Positions 8,027-56,055 of a stretch of 64,000 bases of DNA are shown here, in pieces (positions within the stretch are counted from its first letter, which is position 1; the number at the start of each line of letters is the position of its first letter). The notes below the pieces were generated by a model. That model searched no databases. It had not been told where the DNA came from and worked only from the letters and a program-made list of their open reading frames with translations. A program made the position numbers and the translations under genes. The stretch comes from Allobosea sp. 117 (lineage in GTDB: Bacteria > Pseudomonadota > Alphaproteobacteria > Rhizobiales > Xanthobacteraceae): the NCBI RefSeq assembly GCF_000702305.1, contig NZ_JNLC01000013.1:62001-126000 (forward strand), read 5' to 3'.

Positions 8027-8410
8027 GCACCCTGCTCAATCGCTCGTCGAGTGAATCATCCGCATACTATATTTCATGATAAGCAGACGATAATCACCCC
8101 CTCTTCAATCAATTGTTCCCGCCAGGCGCAGAATTCCGTCAGGGAAGCGCCAGATCGGCGAGGCATCACGACGTCACATTGCGGCAGAGAATAATTCAAA
8201 TTTGAGTGTATTTGGCCGCCAAATCTCGTTTGTAGGCGAACCACACTGCGCAAATCCTGGCGATTACGTGGCGCCCCGGCGGCTGGATCAACTGCCCAGC
8301 CCCTGTTGCAGGCTTCGACGAAAGCCTTGGAACGGCGCCGTTTCACCCGCGTGCCACGCGTGCTAAACCCGCCGCGCCGCTTGAAGGCGAGCATCGAAGA
8401 GGTCTTCCGC
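8027..8410. other. AT-richer intergenic region upstream of fumC
   Basis: A 384-bp stretch with no supported gene, between the divergent DUF4169 and fumC genes. Its middle part (about 8040-8225) is clearly more AT-rich than the window, with ACTATATTTCATGATAAGC and AATAATTCAAATTTGAGTG. It must hold the promoters of both genes. One notable dyad lies at 8210-8224. A minus-strand reading frame entering from fumC has no coding look and is rejected. Confidence 0.7.
8210..8224. promoter_or_regulatory. Candidate operator dyad (ATTTGGC-C-GCCAAAT)
   Basis: A perfect inverted repeat with 7-bp arms and a single-base centre, in the AT-rich spacer 187 bp upstream of the fumC start. The symmetry and position fit a binding site for a dimeric regulator, but I cannot name one and see no second copy in the window. 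Confidence 0.35.
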
Positions 8411-9802
8411 ATGAGCACCACCCGCACCGAAACCGACACCTTCGGGCCGATCGAGGTCGAGGCCGACAAGTACTGGGGCGCGCAGGCGCAACGCTCGCTC
8501 GGCAACTTCAAGATCGGCTGGGAGAAGCAGCCTCTGCCGGTCGTGCGGGCGCTCGGCGTCATCAAGCGGGCGGCGGCGGAGACCAATCTGGAACTCGGCC
8601 GGCTCGATCCGAAGCTGGCCGCCGCGATCGTCGAGGCGGCGCAGGAGGTGATCGAGGGCAAGCTCGACGCGCATTTCCCGCTCGCCGTCTGGCAGACCGG
8701 CTCGGGCACCCAGTCGAACATGAACGCCAACGAGGTGATCTCGAACCGCGCCATCGAGATGCTGGGCGGCGAGAAGGGCTCCAAGAAGCCGGTCCATCCG
8801 AACGACCACGTCAATATGAGCCAGTCGTCCAACGACACCTATCCGACGGCGATGCACATCGCCTGCGCGGAGGAGATCGTGAACCGGCTGATCCCCGCCC
8901 TGTCGAAGCTTCGCGACGCGCTCGACGCCAAGGCGCGGGAATGGGCGAACATCATCAAGATCGGCCGCACCCACACGCAGGACGCCACGCCGCTCACCCT
9001 TGGCCAGGAATTCTCCGGCTATACCCAGCAGGTCGAGAACGGCATCAAGCGCATCGAGCTGACGCTGCCGGCGCTGATGGAGCTGGCCCAGGGCGGCACC
9101 GCGGTGGGCACCGGCCTCAACGCGCCGGTCGGCTTCGCCGAGAAGGTGGCCGAGAAGATTTCCGCCATCACCGGCCTGCCCTTCACCTCGGCGCCGAACA
9201 AGTTCGAGGCGCTGGCCGCGCATGACGCCATGGTGTTCTCGCACGGGGCGATCAACACGGTGGCGGCCTCGCTGTTCAAGATCGCCAACGATATCCGCCT
9301 GCTCGGCTCGGGGCCGCGCTCCGGGCTCGGCGAGCTCTCGCTGCCCGAGAACGAGCCGGGCTCCTCGATCATGCCGGGCAAGGTGAACCCCACCCAGTGC
9401 GAGGCGCTCACCCAGGTCTGTGTGCAGATTTTCGGCAACAACGCCGCGCTCACCTTCGCCGGCAGCCAGGGCCATTTCGAGCTGAACGTCTACAACCCGG
9501 TGATGGCCTACAACTTCCTGCAGTCGGTGCGGCTGATGGCCGACGCGGCGATCAGCTTCACCGACAATTGCGTGGTCGGCATCGAGGCACGCGAGGACAA
9601 CATCAAGTCGGCGCTGGAGCGTTCGCTGATGCTGGTCACCGCGCTCGCCCCGAAGATCGGCTACGACAACGCCGCCAAGATCGCCAAGACGGCGCACAAG
9701 AACGGCACCACGCTGCGCGAGGAGGCTGTCGGCGGCGGTTACGTGACCAATGAAGAGTTCGACGCCGTCGTGCGCCCGGAGAAGATGATCTCGCCGGGTT
9801 GA
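8411..9802 (+). CDS. fumC: Fumarate hydratase, class II
   Basis: A 463-residue oxygen-stable, iron-free fumarase that interconverts fumarate and L-malate in the TCA cycle. The start [16 protein letters not shown] gives the normal family length; an open frame extends 35 codons further upstream without homology-like sequence. Key elements: [13 protein letters not shown] (about 97-109), [11 protein letters not shown], the general acid/base His188 in [10 protein letters not shown], and the mobile loop [11 protein letters not shown] (317-327) with the catalytic serines. It appears monocistronic. Confidence 0.97.
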
Positions 9803-11205: not shown

Positions 11206-12000
11206 TCAGACCGCGACCGGCGCCCTGATGGCCGGGTGCGGGTCATAGCCTTCGATGGCGACGTCCTCGAAGCGGAAGGCGAACAGGTCCTTCACCTCGG
11301 GATTGAGCACCAGCTTCGGCAGCGCGCGCGGGGCGCGGGAAAGCTGCTCGTGCACCTGTTCCAGATGGTTCAGATAGATGTGCGTGTCGCCCAGCGTGTG
11401 GACGAAGTCGCCCGGCTTCAGGCCGGTGACCTGCGCCACCATGTGGGTGAGCAGCGCATAGCTCGCGATGTTGAACGGCACGCCGAGGAAGGTGTCGGCC
11501 GAGCGCTGGTAGAGCTGGCAGGAGATCCGGCCGTCGGCGATGTAGAACTGGAACAGCAGGTGGCAGGGCGGCAGCGCCATCTTCGACACGTCGGCCGGGT
11601 TCCATGCGGTGACGATCAGCCGGCGGGAATCAGGGTTGCGGCGTATGTCCGCCACGACCTGCGCGATCTGGTCGATCACGCCGCCTTCCGGCGTCGGCCA
11701 GGAACGCCATTGGTGGCCATAGACAGGCCCGAGATCGCCATTGGCGTCTGCCCACTCGTCCCAGATAGAGACGCCGTTCGCCTTGAGGTAGGCGATGTTG
11801 GTGTCGCCGGCGAGGAACCACAGCAGCTCGTGGACGATGGACTTCAGATGCAGCCGCTTGGTGGTGACGAGCGGAAAGCCTTCGGAGAGGTCGAAGCGCA
11901 TCTGGTGACCGAACACGGACAGCGTGCCGGTGCCGGTGCGGTCGTCCTTGCGCGTGCCCTCACGCAGGATGCGTTCCAGAAGCTCGTGATATTGCCGCAT
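11206..12000 (-). CDS. thyA: Thymidylate synthase
   Basis: A 264-residue ThyA, exactly the length of the E. coli enzyme. It methylates dUMP to dTMP using 5,10-methylene-THF, releasing dihydrofolate. The start [12 protein letters not shown] is preferred; an open frame runs 27 codons further upstream. The nucleophile is Cys146 in [23 protein letters not shown] (phosphate binding), [11 protein letters not shown] and the C-terminal [11 protein letters not shown] are all present. The dihydrofolate reductase that recycles its product, usually beside it, is instead 3.4 kb away on the opposite strand. Confidence 0.97.
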
Positions 12001-12104
12001 GGCCGTCGATTCGCAGTTTCGCCGATCCGGCATTCTAGCGCATGACGGCGGGCAGCGGAGAACCCGCCGCCCGCCATTCACAGATGCATATGGGAACGCG
12101 GAGG

Positions 12105-13010: not shown

Positions 13011-13054
13011 GCGGCGCTTTTCCCACACCCTGCCGGCAACCGGCGCGCGGCCTC

Positions 13055-13083
13055 TTCCAACCGGGCGCCGGCCTGCCTATATT
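13055..13083 (+). promoter_or_regulatory. Putative sigma-70 promoter of ssrA
   Basis: TTCCAA, 17 bp, TATATT. The -10 box is good and the -35 weak. Predicted transcription start is near 13090, just before the acceptor half of the permuted tmRNA. Confidence 0.5.
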
Positions 13084-13089
13084 CGGGGT

Positions 13090-13403
13090 GCCGGCGCAAG
13101 CCGGCTATGGCGATAAACGGCCATCGGAATAAACCCTTCGGACCCGGGGGCAGTACCCGGCGCCTCCACCCGAGCCCAGACCGGACGCTGGTCTCCGGCG
13201 GGGGCGAAACAGGATCGACGAGGGCGTAAAGGGTGGACTTTCGCTCGGCATGGTACCGCCGTCATCGGACCAAACATATAGTTGCCAACGACAACTATGC
13301 TCCGGTTGCTCAGGCCGCGTGAGCGGTTTGATCTCTGGAAATTAAGTCCTTGCGGGTAGCACTGTAAGGCGGGGTTCGGAGGTACCTGGCAACAGAAACC
13401 TCC
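13090..13403 (+). ncRNA. ssrA: Permuted two-piece tmRNA (alpha-tmRNA)
   Basis: Transfer-messenger RNA that rescues stalled ribosomes and adds a degradation tag. The order is circularly permuted: the acceptor piece comes first (about 13090-13171, ending CGCCTCCACC), then a loop that is removed, then the coding piece from GGGGGCGAAACAGGATCGAC at 13200. GGGGGCG (13200-13206) pairs with CGCCTCC (13161-13167) to make the acceptor stem, which proves the permutation. The tag frame at 13284-13322 reads ANDNYAPVAQAA then TGA, preceded by the expected TAGTT context. The coding piece closes with a GGAGGT...ACCTCC hairpin. The exact 5' and 3' ends are approximate. Confidence 0.95.
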
Positions 13404-13464
13404 ACTTTCGTTTCGCGGCCTGTTGAGGCTGGCGGTGTGAGCCGGAATCGGGTTCATTGCGCGC

Positions 13465-14112
13465 ATGAGTGTCGATCTGATCCGCTATGATCTCCTGGTC
13501 CAGGATGCGCTGCGTGATGTCGTGCGCCGCGTCCTCAGCGACGTCGCGCGCGACGGGCTGCAAGGCGACCACCATCTGTTCATTTCCTTCGATACGCGTG
13601 CACCGGGCGTGCGGCTGTCCAGCCGCCTCAAGGAGGACTATCCGGACAAGATGACGATCGTGCTCCAGCACCAGTTCTGGGACCTGATCGTCACCGAGCA
13701 GTTCTTCGAGGTCGGGCTGTCCTTCAAGCGCGTGCCCGAGCGGCTGCACGTGCCGTTCTCCGCGCTGAAGGAATTCTACGATCCCTCCGTCAAGTTCGGC
13801 CTGCAGTTCGAGCCTTCCGCCGAGGACGCCGACGCCCCGGCTTCCGAGACCGCGTCCGAAGCGTCGCCTTCCGAGCCGGTCGGCGGTCCCGCACGGCCCA
13901 CCTCGGTTCCCTCGACAGGGCCGACGCGGCTGCCCGAGCGCGCGGGGCCCTCGCGTCCGGCCGAGCTGAAGCCGGTCGAGGCACGCCCCGCATCCAAGGC
14001 GAGCGCCGAAGCGGAGCCGCCCGCCGAGAGCGTTCCAGAGGACGCCGAGCCACCATCGTCCCCCGCCGGCGGGGCGCAGGTCGTGCGGCTCGATACGTTC
14101 CGCAAGAAGTGA
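13465..14112 (+). CDS. sspB: SspB, ClpXP adaptor for ssrA-tagged proteins
   Basis: A 215-residue alphaproteobacterial SspB. It binds the N-terminal part of the ssrA tag and delivers tagged proteins to ClpXP. The folded substrate-binding domain is about residues 1-120 (HLFISFDTRAPGVRLSSRLK, MTIVLQHQFWDLIV, RVPERLHVPFSALKEFYDPS). A long Ala/Pro/Glu/Ser-rich linker follows, ending in AQVVRLDTFRKK, the probable ClpX-tethering (XB) tail. It begins about 60 bp after the tmRNA that makes its substrate tag. Confidence 0.93.
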   Translation: MSVDLIRYDLLVQDALRDVVRRVLSDVARDGLQGDHHLFISFDTRAPGVRLSSRLKEDYPDKMTIVLQHQFWDLIVTEQFFEVGLSFKRVPERLHVPFSALKEFYDPSVKFGLQFEPSAEDADAPASETASEASPSEPVGGPARPTSVPSTGPTRLPERAGPSRPAELKPVEARPASKASAEAEPPAESVPEDAEPPSSPAGGAQVVRLDTFRKK

Positions 14113-52651: not shown

Positions 52652-53091
52652 GCCAAACCTGCCATTCGCCCTGCCGACGCGAATCACGTCGGCAAATCCT
52701 AGATGTTTTGGCGTTGCCTCGCGCGGGACGGCTCTTCTGTCCACACACGCTTGCCGCACACGCTCGGCTCCGCACAGGGGGAGGCTGCAATCGCGGGGCC
52801 GGGAATCTGTGCCAAATCGGCACGCGCGCGAAAGGAGAAGGGCTCGCCCGTCGAAAAAAGAGCCGCCCGGAGGCGGCTCGTGAAGTGATGACAGGGAGGC
52901 GTCAAACAGAGTGGACAGGAGCCACTCACGTCCAAAAATTGGACAGTCCCTGTAATGAACCGGAAAGCTTAATGGCGGGTTAAGCGGGAAGGGACAGGGA
53001 ACAAAAAAGGACCGGACCGGCGGCATTTGGCCGAGGCTCATCGCAATTTTAGTCAAATGCCCGTGCCCGATGCGTGCTTTTCGAGGCGAGC
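52652..53091. other. Intergenic region with possible minus-strand small RNA
   Basis: A 440-bp spacer, more AT-rich than the window, with no supported reading frame. On the minus strand a hairpin pair GTCCAA/TTGGAC (about 52941-52955) is followed by a strong terminator at 52853-52880. The stretch between about 53000 and 52853 could be an sRNA or the 3' UTR of the DMT transporter gene. No clear promoter is visible. Confidence 0.45.
52853..52880 (-). terminator. Rho-independent terminator, minus strand
   Basis: A perfect 8-bp stem (GAGCCGCC / GGCGGCTC) with loop CCGG-like and, on the minus strand, a following TTTTTT. It lies 210 bp past the DMT transporter stop, so it ends either that message or a separate small RNA. 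Confidence 0.85.
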
Positions 53092-55790: not shown

Positions 55791-55920
55791 ATGAATCCGT
55801 CCAGGACGCGTGTATGCCGGGGATAGTCGTTCGCGACGTGCACCCTGCCTCTGGCAATCGGCGCCGCCGCGTCTTACATTCGTCATGCGGGGCTGCGGGG
55901 CGCGTCAGGAGAACATATTC

Positions 55921-56035
55921 CCCGGGGCCTTATCGATCTCAAAGGGAGCTGTCCCTGACCGGACCCGTGGGTTCGGACATACGGCGCCCACCTACGTTGT
56001 AGGTTCCCGGGATCGATCCTCCAACGGCCATCGTG
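55921..56035 (+). ncRNA. ssrS: 6S RNA (alphaproteobacterial type)
   Basis: 6S RNA mimics an open promoter and sequesters sigma-70 RNA polymerase in stationary phase. The sequence shows the alpha-type layout: a closing stem from TATCGATC (about 55930) and GATCGAT (about 56011), inner AAAGGGAGCTGTCCC, a GTGGG/CCCAC stem, and the 3' hairpin CCTACgttGTAGG. A CATATT -10-like box lies just upstream. It directly precedes 5-formyl-THF cyclo-ligase, the classical ssrS-fthC/ygfA order. Ends are approximate. Confidence 0.8.
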
Positions 56036-56055
56036 GCTCCGCGCTTTTCTCTCTC

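Follow-up and report, generated by a model that had tools for sequence, protein, structure and literature searches.

A permuted tmRNA gene and the neighbouring sspB gene lie in an old alphaproteobacterial gene block, and tags lack the ANDN front in two orders without SspB

The window, a 64,000-nt stretch of the Allobosea sp. 117 genome, contains one tmRNA gene, which ARAGORN placed on the + strand at 13076-13413 as a permuted gene with an open tag frame and an Ala-Ala end, ANDNYAPVAQAA-stop. The Rfam model RF01849 (alpha_tmRNA) matched at 13051-13406 with 314.4 bits against a gathering score of 50 (E 6.7e-91), covering model positions 1-355 of 355 and hence its full length, and RF04321 (tmRNA_permuted) matched at 13109-13322 with 150.4 bits. 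This tmRNA is the single RF01849 match in the whole genome. Both the tag reading and the permuted form given in a first-pass annotation of this DNA therefore hold; the start that it gave, 13090, is slightly too far in, since the gene begins at 13051 (Rfam) or 13076 (ARAGORN). The next open reading frame on the same strand, 13465-14112, encodes a 215-aa protein that matched Pfam PF04386 with 157.3 bits against a cut-off of 27. Its solved relatives are 2nys (E 1.3e-43), which we take to be from Agrobacterium, and 2qas and 2qaz (E 6.8e-34 and 9.6e-33), presumably from Caulobacter; 2qaz bears the name 'SspB Protein'. NCBIfam models gave no match to this protein at E <= 0.001. The PF04386 score and the solved relatives confirm its earlier identification as SspB. 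The identities of the two genes and their arrangement are thus direct observations. The features are as follows:

13051..13406 (ARAGORN limits 13076-13413), + strand: permuted two-piece tmRNA gene ssrA (RF01849, ARAGORN)
13109..13171, + strand: acceptor piece, with T-arm and 3' acceptor strand ending CCTCC-A-CCC, CCA incompletely encoded (start from RF04321; limits by eye)
13172..13199, + strand: intervening segment, expected to be absent from the mature two-piece RNA (between the two acceptor strands, by eye)
13200..13406, + strand: coding piece, starting with the 5' acceptor strand GGGGGCG (sequence, RF01849 match)
13284..13322, + strand: open frame of the tag, ANDNYAPVAQAA-stop (ARAGORN, gene positions 209-247; sequence)
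13407..13464, + strand: gap between ssrA and sspB (consensus scan, fold)
13465..14112, + strand: sspB, alphaproteobacterial type, 215 aa (PF04386; 2nys, 2qas, 2qaz)
13465..13818, + strand: SspB core, approximately residues 1-118 (aligns with 2nys and 2qaz)
13819..14079, + strand: low-complexity linker rich in Pro, Ala, Glu and Ser (translation)
14080..14109, + strand: C-terminal tail VVRLDTFRKK, the expected ClpX-docking peptide (LDxFR-type tail kept in relatives)

The window tmRNA resembles other alphaproteobacterial permuted tmRNAs (RF01849/RF04321) in its full-length match, its permuted order, the position of the tag in the second piece and the Ala-Ala end, and differs from them by ordinary variation only. 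By analogy with the tmRNA family, the intervening segment at 13172-13199 would be removed. The acceptor end encoded at 13168-13171 is ACCC instead of ACCA, indicating that the last base must come after processing; the same ACCC end occurred in 38 of the 220 genomes in which the pattern was found, the window genome included. The permuted form is well described, with 11,946 unique permuted sequences listed in PMC11915505, and PMC10117765 reports the detection of a Sinorhizobium split-tmRNA tag by proteomics. Rfam also matched two other RNAs in the window: the alphaproteobacterial sRNA BjrC1505 at 52853-52990 on the - strand (115 bits) and 6S RNA (SsrS) at 55887-56043 on the + strand (87 bits).

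The core of the window SspB is a sequence relative of Caulobacter SspB-alpha (2qas/2qaz), whereas its linker is longer and of low complexity. Six SspB proteins measured from the tblastn start were 170-266 aa long, and an LDxFR-type tail was present in 293 of 319 SspB open reading frames of the loci, some genomes being counted twice. In E. coli, the C-terminal tail of SspB docks on ClpX. The Caulobacter tag differs from the window tag after ANDN. A description of SspB from alphaproteobacteria was given by Lessner et al. 2007, as cited in PMC8138137.

The two genes are separated by 51 nt counted from the ARAGORN end of ssrA and by 58 nt from the Rfam end, in agreement with the distance of about 60 bp noted earlier. 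A crude consensus scan of this one sequence, which also missed the ssrA promoter, found neither a terminator-like nor a sigma-70-type promoter-like site on the + strand of the gap (13407-13464); the opposite strand had one terminator-like match, within ssrA (13278-13298). The gap showed no special fold, the energy of 13400-13470 being the same as that of shuffled sequences (z=-0.10).

We next asked how common the arrangement is, scoring a pair as linked when the sspB match lay 0-600 nt downstream of ssrA on the same strand. RF01849 was found in 197 of 199 genomes sampled from the order, as was PF04386, and linkage was measured in the 127 genomes for which both places were among the best matches listed. 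Among those matches, sspB was 56-353 nt downstream of ssrA on the same strand in 116 of 127 genomes; in the other 11 it was 645-2981 nt downstream (seven), upstream (one), far away (one) or on another contig (two). A second sample covered 144 genomes of the class and shared the window genome and G039 with the order sample. With six weaker or second tmRNA rows left out, RF01849 matched at E <= 0.001 in 140 of these genomes and over the cut-off in 138, PF04386 matched in 136, and 134 had both. sspB was within 600 nt of ssrA (36-536 nt) in 92 of the 134; for the remaining 42 it was 644-7548 nt downstream (16) or elsewhere or on another contig (26), with an assembly break possible in the other-contig cases. 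Going by these 42 genomes, the function of the pair does not need adjacency.

Loci from 80 named relatives (Ancylobacter, Xanthobacter, Aquabacter, Methylobacterium, Methylorubrum, Microvirga and others) gave a similar picture. ARAGORN found a tmRNA in 64 of them, with the SspB match following after 29-144 nt in 63 and after 1885 nt in one, Ancylobacter crimeensis. RF01849 matched in six of the remaining 16 (one with 50.3 bits against the cut-off of 50, one cut by a contig end), and the Rfam search that followed ARAGORN found no RF01849 match in ten of the 80; neither program found a tmRNA in the Ancylobacter gelatini locus. The Ancylobacter and Xanthobacter loci in which a tmRNA could be identified agree with the window in gene order and mostly in the tag, at spacings of 45-133 nt; the SspB proteins of these two genera are 49-65% identical to that of the window over the best segment, and some of their tags end in LAA. 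Conservation of the arrangement is directly observed, and we conclude that ssrA-sspB linkage is ordinary, old and widespread in the class.

The surroundings of the pair indicate where the adjacency comes from. We used FumC, ThyA, ThyX, FolA, SspB and the amine oxidase as tblastn queries, together with the ARAGORN tmRNA finder, and recovered a recurrent order of reversed folA, reversed thyA, and then ssrA, sspB and fumC in the forward direction. This order was complete in 27 loci and partial in others, in a count that includes some genomes twice and many loci too short for the complete block. thyX may replace thyA. In the window, fumC (8306-9802) lies upstream, beyond thyA (11206-12081), and a flavin amine oxidase gene and folA follow sspB; the arrangement in the window is thus a local variant of the old block. 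We take the adjacency of ssrA and sspB to be a legacy of this ancient block of the alphaproteobacteria, folA-thyA/thyX-ssrA-sspB-fumC.

Inheritance in a block can be read in two further ways. The pair could merely sit in a slowly rearranging block, with an adjacency that has no functional meaning. The conservation of the unrelated neighbours thyA/thyX, folA and fumC is consistent with such a reading; however, loci in which fumC or folA has shifted position, the one in the window among them, still have ssrA and sspB together, and we place this reading at slightly less than an even chance. Alternatively, ssrA and sspB might share a promoter, with SspB made by read-through in proportion to the tmRNA. 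The common strand, the short gap with neither kind of site, and the close spacing kept across the class are all compatible with co-transcription. By contrast, one or a few kilobases separate the pair in other genomes, and the scan of the gap was a crude one of a single sequence that missed the ssrA promoter as well. Co-transcription, which we infer from spacing and strand, is therefore a tentative proposal that could nearly as well be right as wrong.

The remaining explanation tied the adjacency to the tag. The first-pass annotation had contrasted the QAA ending with the LAA or VAA common elsewhere, had suggested that QAA may weaken direct recognition by ClpX or ClpA and raise dependence on SspB, and had seen in the pairing a compact, co-expressed trans-translation module. 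On this view, the linkage would be kept for the sake of an SspB-dependent tag. Tags were read in 157 of 199 genomes of the order, the others having no fetched tmRNA or no tag, and ended in LAA (69), VAA (46), QAA (32), AAA (4), IAA (3) or MAA (3). QAA is therefore not unusual in this order, though none of 101 tags from the class outside the order had it, nine of these tags having been read by pattern and not by ARAGORN. It occurred in 12 of 42 families of the order, and in five of these 12 families other endings were present as well (f19, f27, f28, f32 and f39). Mapped on a tree of 144 SspB cores, which has few columns and many open forks, the QAA ending required 15 changes, at least four of them forced by well-supported branches.

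Tag ending and linkage were not associated. Among the matches listed for the order, sspB was adjacent in 27 of 29 genomes with QAA and in 89 of 98 with other endings (LAA, VAA, IAA, AAA; Fisher p=1.0), a direct observation that excludes QAA as a marker of SspB linkage; the survey of tag ending against ssrA-sspB distance that had been proposed as a check thus found no correlation, the outcome that refutes the suggested tie. Consistent with this, spacing within Xanthobacter was alike for tags ending in QAA (117-133 nt) and in LAA (131-133 nt): X. autotrophicus AM3 has QAA at 133 nt, X. autotrophicus DSM 432 has LAA at 133 nt, and X. aminoxidans has LAA at 131 nt. In this genus, the tag ending changes and the spacing stays. 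The QAA tag retains the terminal Ala-Ala, and PMC7652416, citing Flynn 2001, names the Ala-Ala end as the main ClpX determinant, with a change of the antepenultimate residue raising KM modestly; from the same paper, this residue can be assigned to contacts with ClpX. A linkage kept for an SspB-dependent QAA tag can claim that modest KM effect near the ClpX contacts, the 27 of 29 adjacent genomes, and the single distant named pair, A. crimeensis, whose tag ends in LAA whereas the other Ancylobacter loci with an identified tmRNA have tags ending in QAA, at 45-82 nt; nevertheless, it is very improbable given the equal frequency of linkage with other endings, the near-universal presence of SspB whatever the tag, the similar spacings in Xanthobacter and the unchanged Ala-Ala.

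The front of the tag behaved differently. Scoring SspB by the PF04386 profile search, we found tags starting with ANDN in 239 of the 245 SspB-bearing genomes for which ARAGORN read a tag; eleven tags read by a pattern that requires A-N-D/N-N were left out, and including them gives 250 of 256, a figure biased to ANDN. The six SspB-bearing genomes with other tags are G328, G215, G209, G289, G250 and G323, of which G250 and G289 look like ARAGORN misreadings. In a wider class sample of 389 genomes, PF04386 had no match in 22; among the 20 listed, RF01849 was present in 15 and over the cut-off in 13. Two orders of small-genome alphaproteobacteria, those of G237 and G280, had no SspB match. In the order of G237, SspB was found in 0 of 6 genomes and none of the six tags, all of which were read, had ANDN (ANDDYAELALAA, AKSDYAEYALAA and similar). 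In the order of G280, SspB was found in 0 of 48 genomes and a tmRNA in 47; 46 tags were read, none with ANDN and all of nine residues, for example ANESYALAA, ANESYAIAA, ANNKFALAA and ANDELALAA. The Ala-Ala end was present in all 52 tags of these two orders.

Overall, ANDN occurred in 1 of 54 tags from genomes without SspB (the 52 from the two orders plus G223 and G312). The Fisher value for ANDN against SspB, 8e-51, carries no weight, as the genomes are not independent and the real events number one or two. The exception to co-loss is G223 (L291), a one-contig small genome with no SspB match and the tag ANDNELALAA, perhaps a recent loss of sspB. G312 has no SspB match and a tag starting ANQNN, and a congeneric genome has SspB, so that its SspB is perhaps missing through an assembly gap. 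We also noted four genomes of the same class (G351, G432, G265 and G365; loci L343-L346) with a one-piece tmRNA (RF00023, 139-176 bits), no PF04386 match and tags without ANDN; these may be lineages outside the permutation event. The comparison of 239 of 245 with 1 of 54 supports the earlier suggestion that the N-terminal part of the tag is the SspB contact. In E. coli, SspB is bound by all tested degrons that contain AANDENY, with KD values within about fourfold (PMC8512704).

We then looked at the block in the SspB-less loci (L280-L290, L299 and L301-L342, from the orders of G237 and G280, L286 being G312). In all six genomes of the G237 order the block consists of reversed folA and thyA followed by forward ssrA and fumC, and nine loci of the G280 order have reversed thyX followed by forward ssrA and fumC. 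fumC came directly after ssrA in 6 of 6 genomes of the first order and in 6 of 30 longer loci of the second. Of 16 SspB-less loci, 13 had a gap of 25-67 nt between ssrA and fumC (the six G237-order genomes, one of them twice, and six loci of the G280 order) and the other three had one of 722-1229 nt, compared with a median of 854 nt (554-2652) in 77 loci where sspB is present. In the intact blocks of both orders, sspB is gone from its usual place, and PF04386 finds none elsewhere. Among the 30 G280-order loci with long flanks, the rest had no fumC found downstream of ssrA, indicating that the block is rearranged there; in one, G493, a reversed open reading frame follows ssrA. The order of G280 is probably Pelagibacterales, judging from the reversed thyX before ssrA, as in 'Cand. 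Pelagibacter ubique', where the tmRNA is reported to be flanked by thyX and a COG4696 gene, both reversed (PMC2704228).

A 90-row tree of FumC had a branch, with an SH-aLRT of 94, that set apart the 14 rows without SspB, which come from both orders. As odd composition was flagged in most of these 14, the tree is compatible with one loss and with two. A single loss of sspB may thus account for both orders; two independent losses are unsupported, as the FumC tree, with its composition warnings, joins the orders.

Taken together, the two genes very probably form a standard trans-translation locus in which the adjacency of ssrA and sspB comes from an old block and is independent of the QAA ending. 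We infer tmRNA processing, SspB binding and degradation from what is known of the families. The permuted ssrA transcript would be processed to a two-piece, alanine-charged tmRNA, which would rescue stalled ribosomes and append ANDNYAPVAQAA together with the alanine that it carries. The SspB encoded by the neighbouring gene would bind the ANDN front of the tag, its C-terminal LDxFRKK tail would dock on the ClpX N-domain, and the Ala-Ala end of the tag would go into the ClpX pore.

Permuted tmRNA and alphaproteobacterial SspB are already known. No paper in the literature searched contains the exact tag fragments. Neither the ssrA-sspB adjacency nor the co-loss is mentioned in the texts consulted, which do not include the likeliest sources, and the adjacency may well be in print; the co-loss of sspB and ANDN is worth following up. 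The distribution of the two tag ends suggests that the tag is likely made up of two separately selected modules, an ANDN front kept by SspB and an Ala-Ala end kept by ClpX. If this is true, the presence of SspB would be predictable from the tag. The joint absence of the adaptor and the front motif is a natural experiment that bears on the selection exerted by SspB, with the prediction that ClpXP of the SspB-less orders should take tagged proteins without help.
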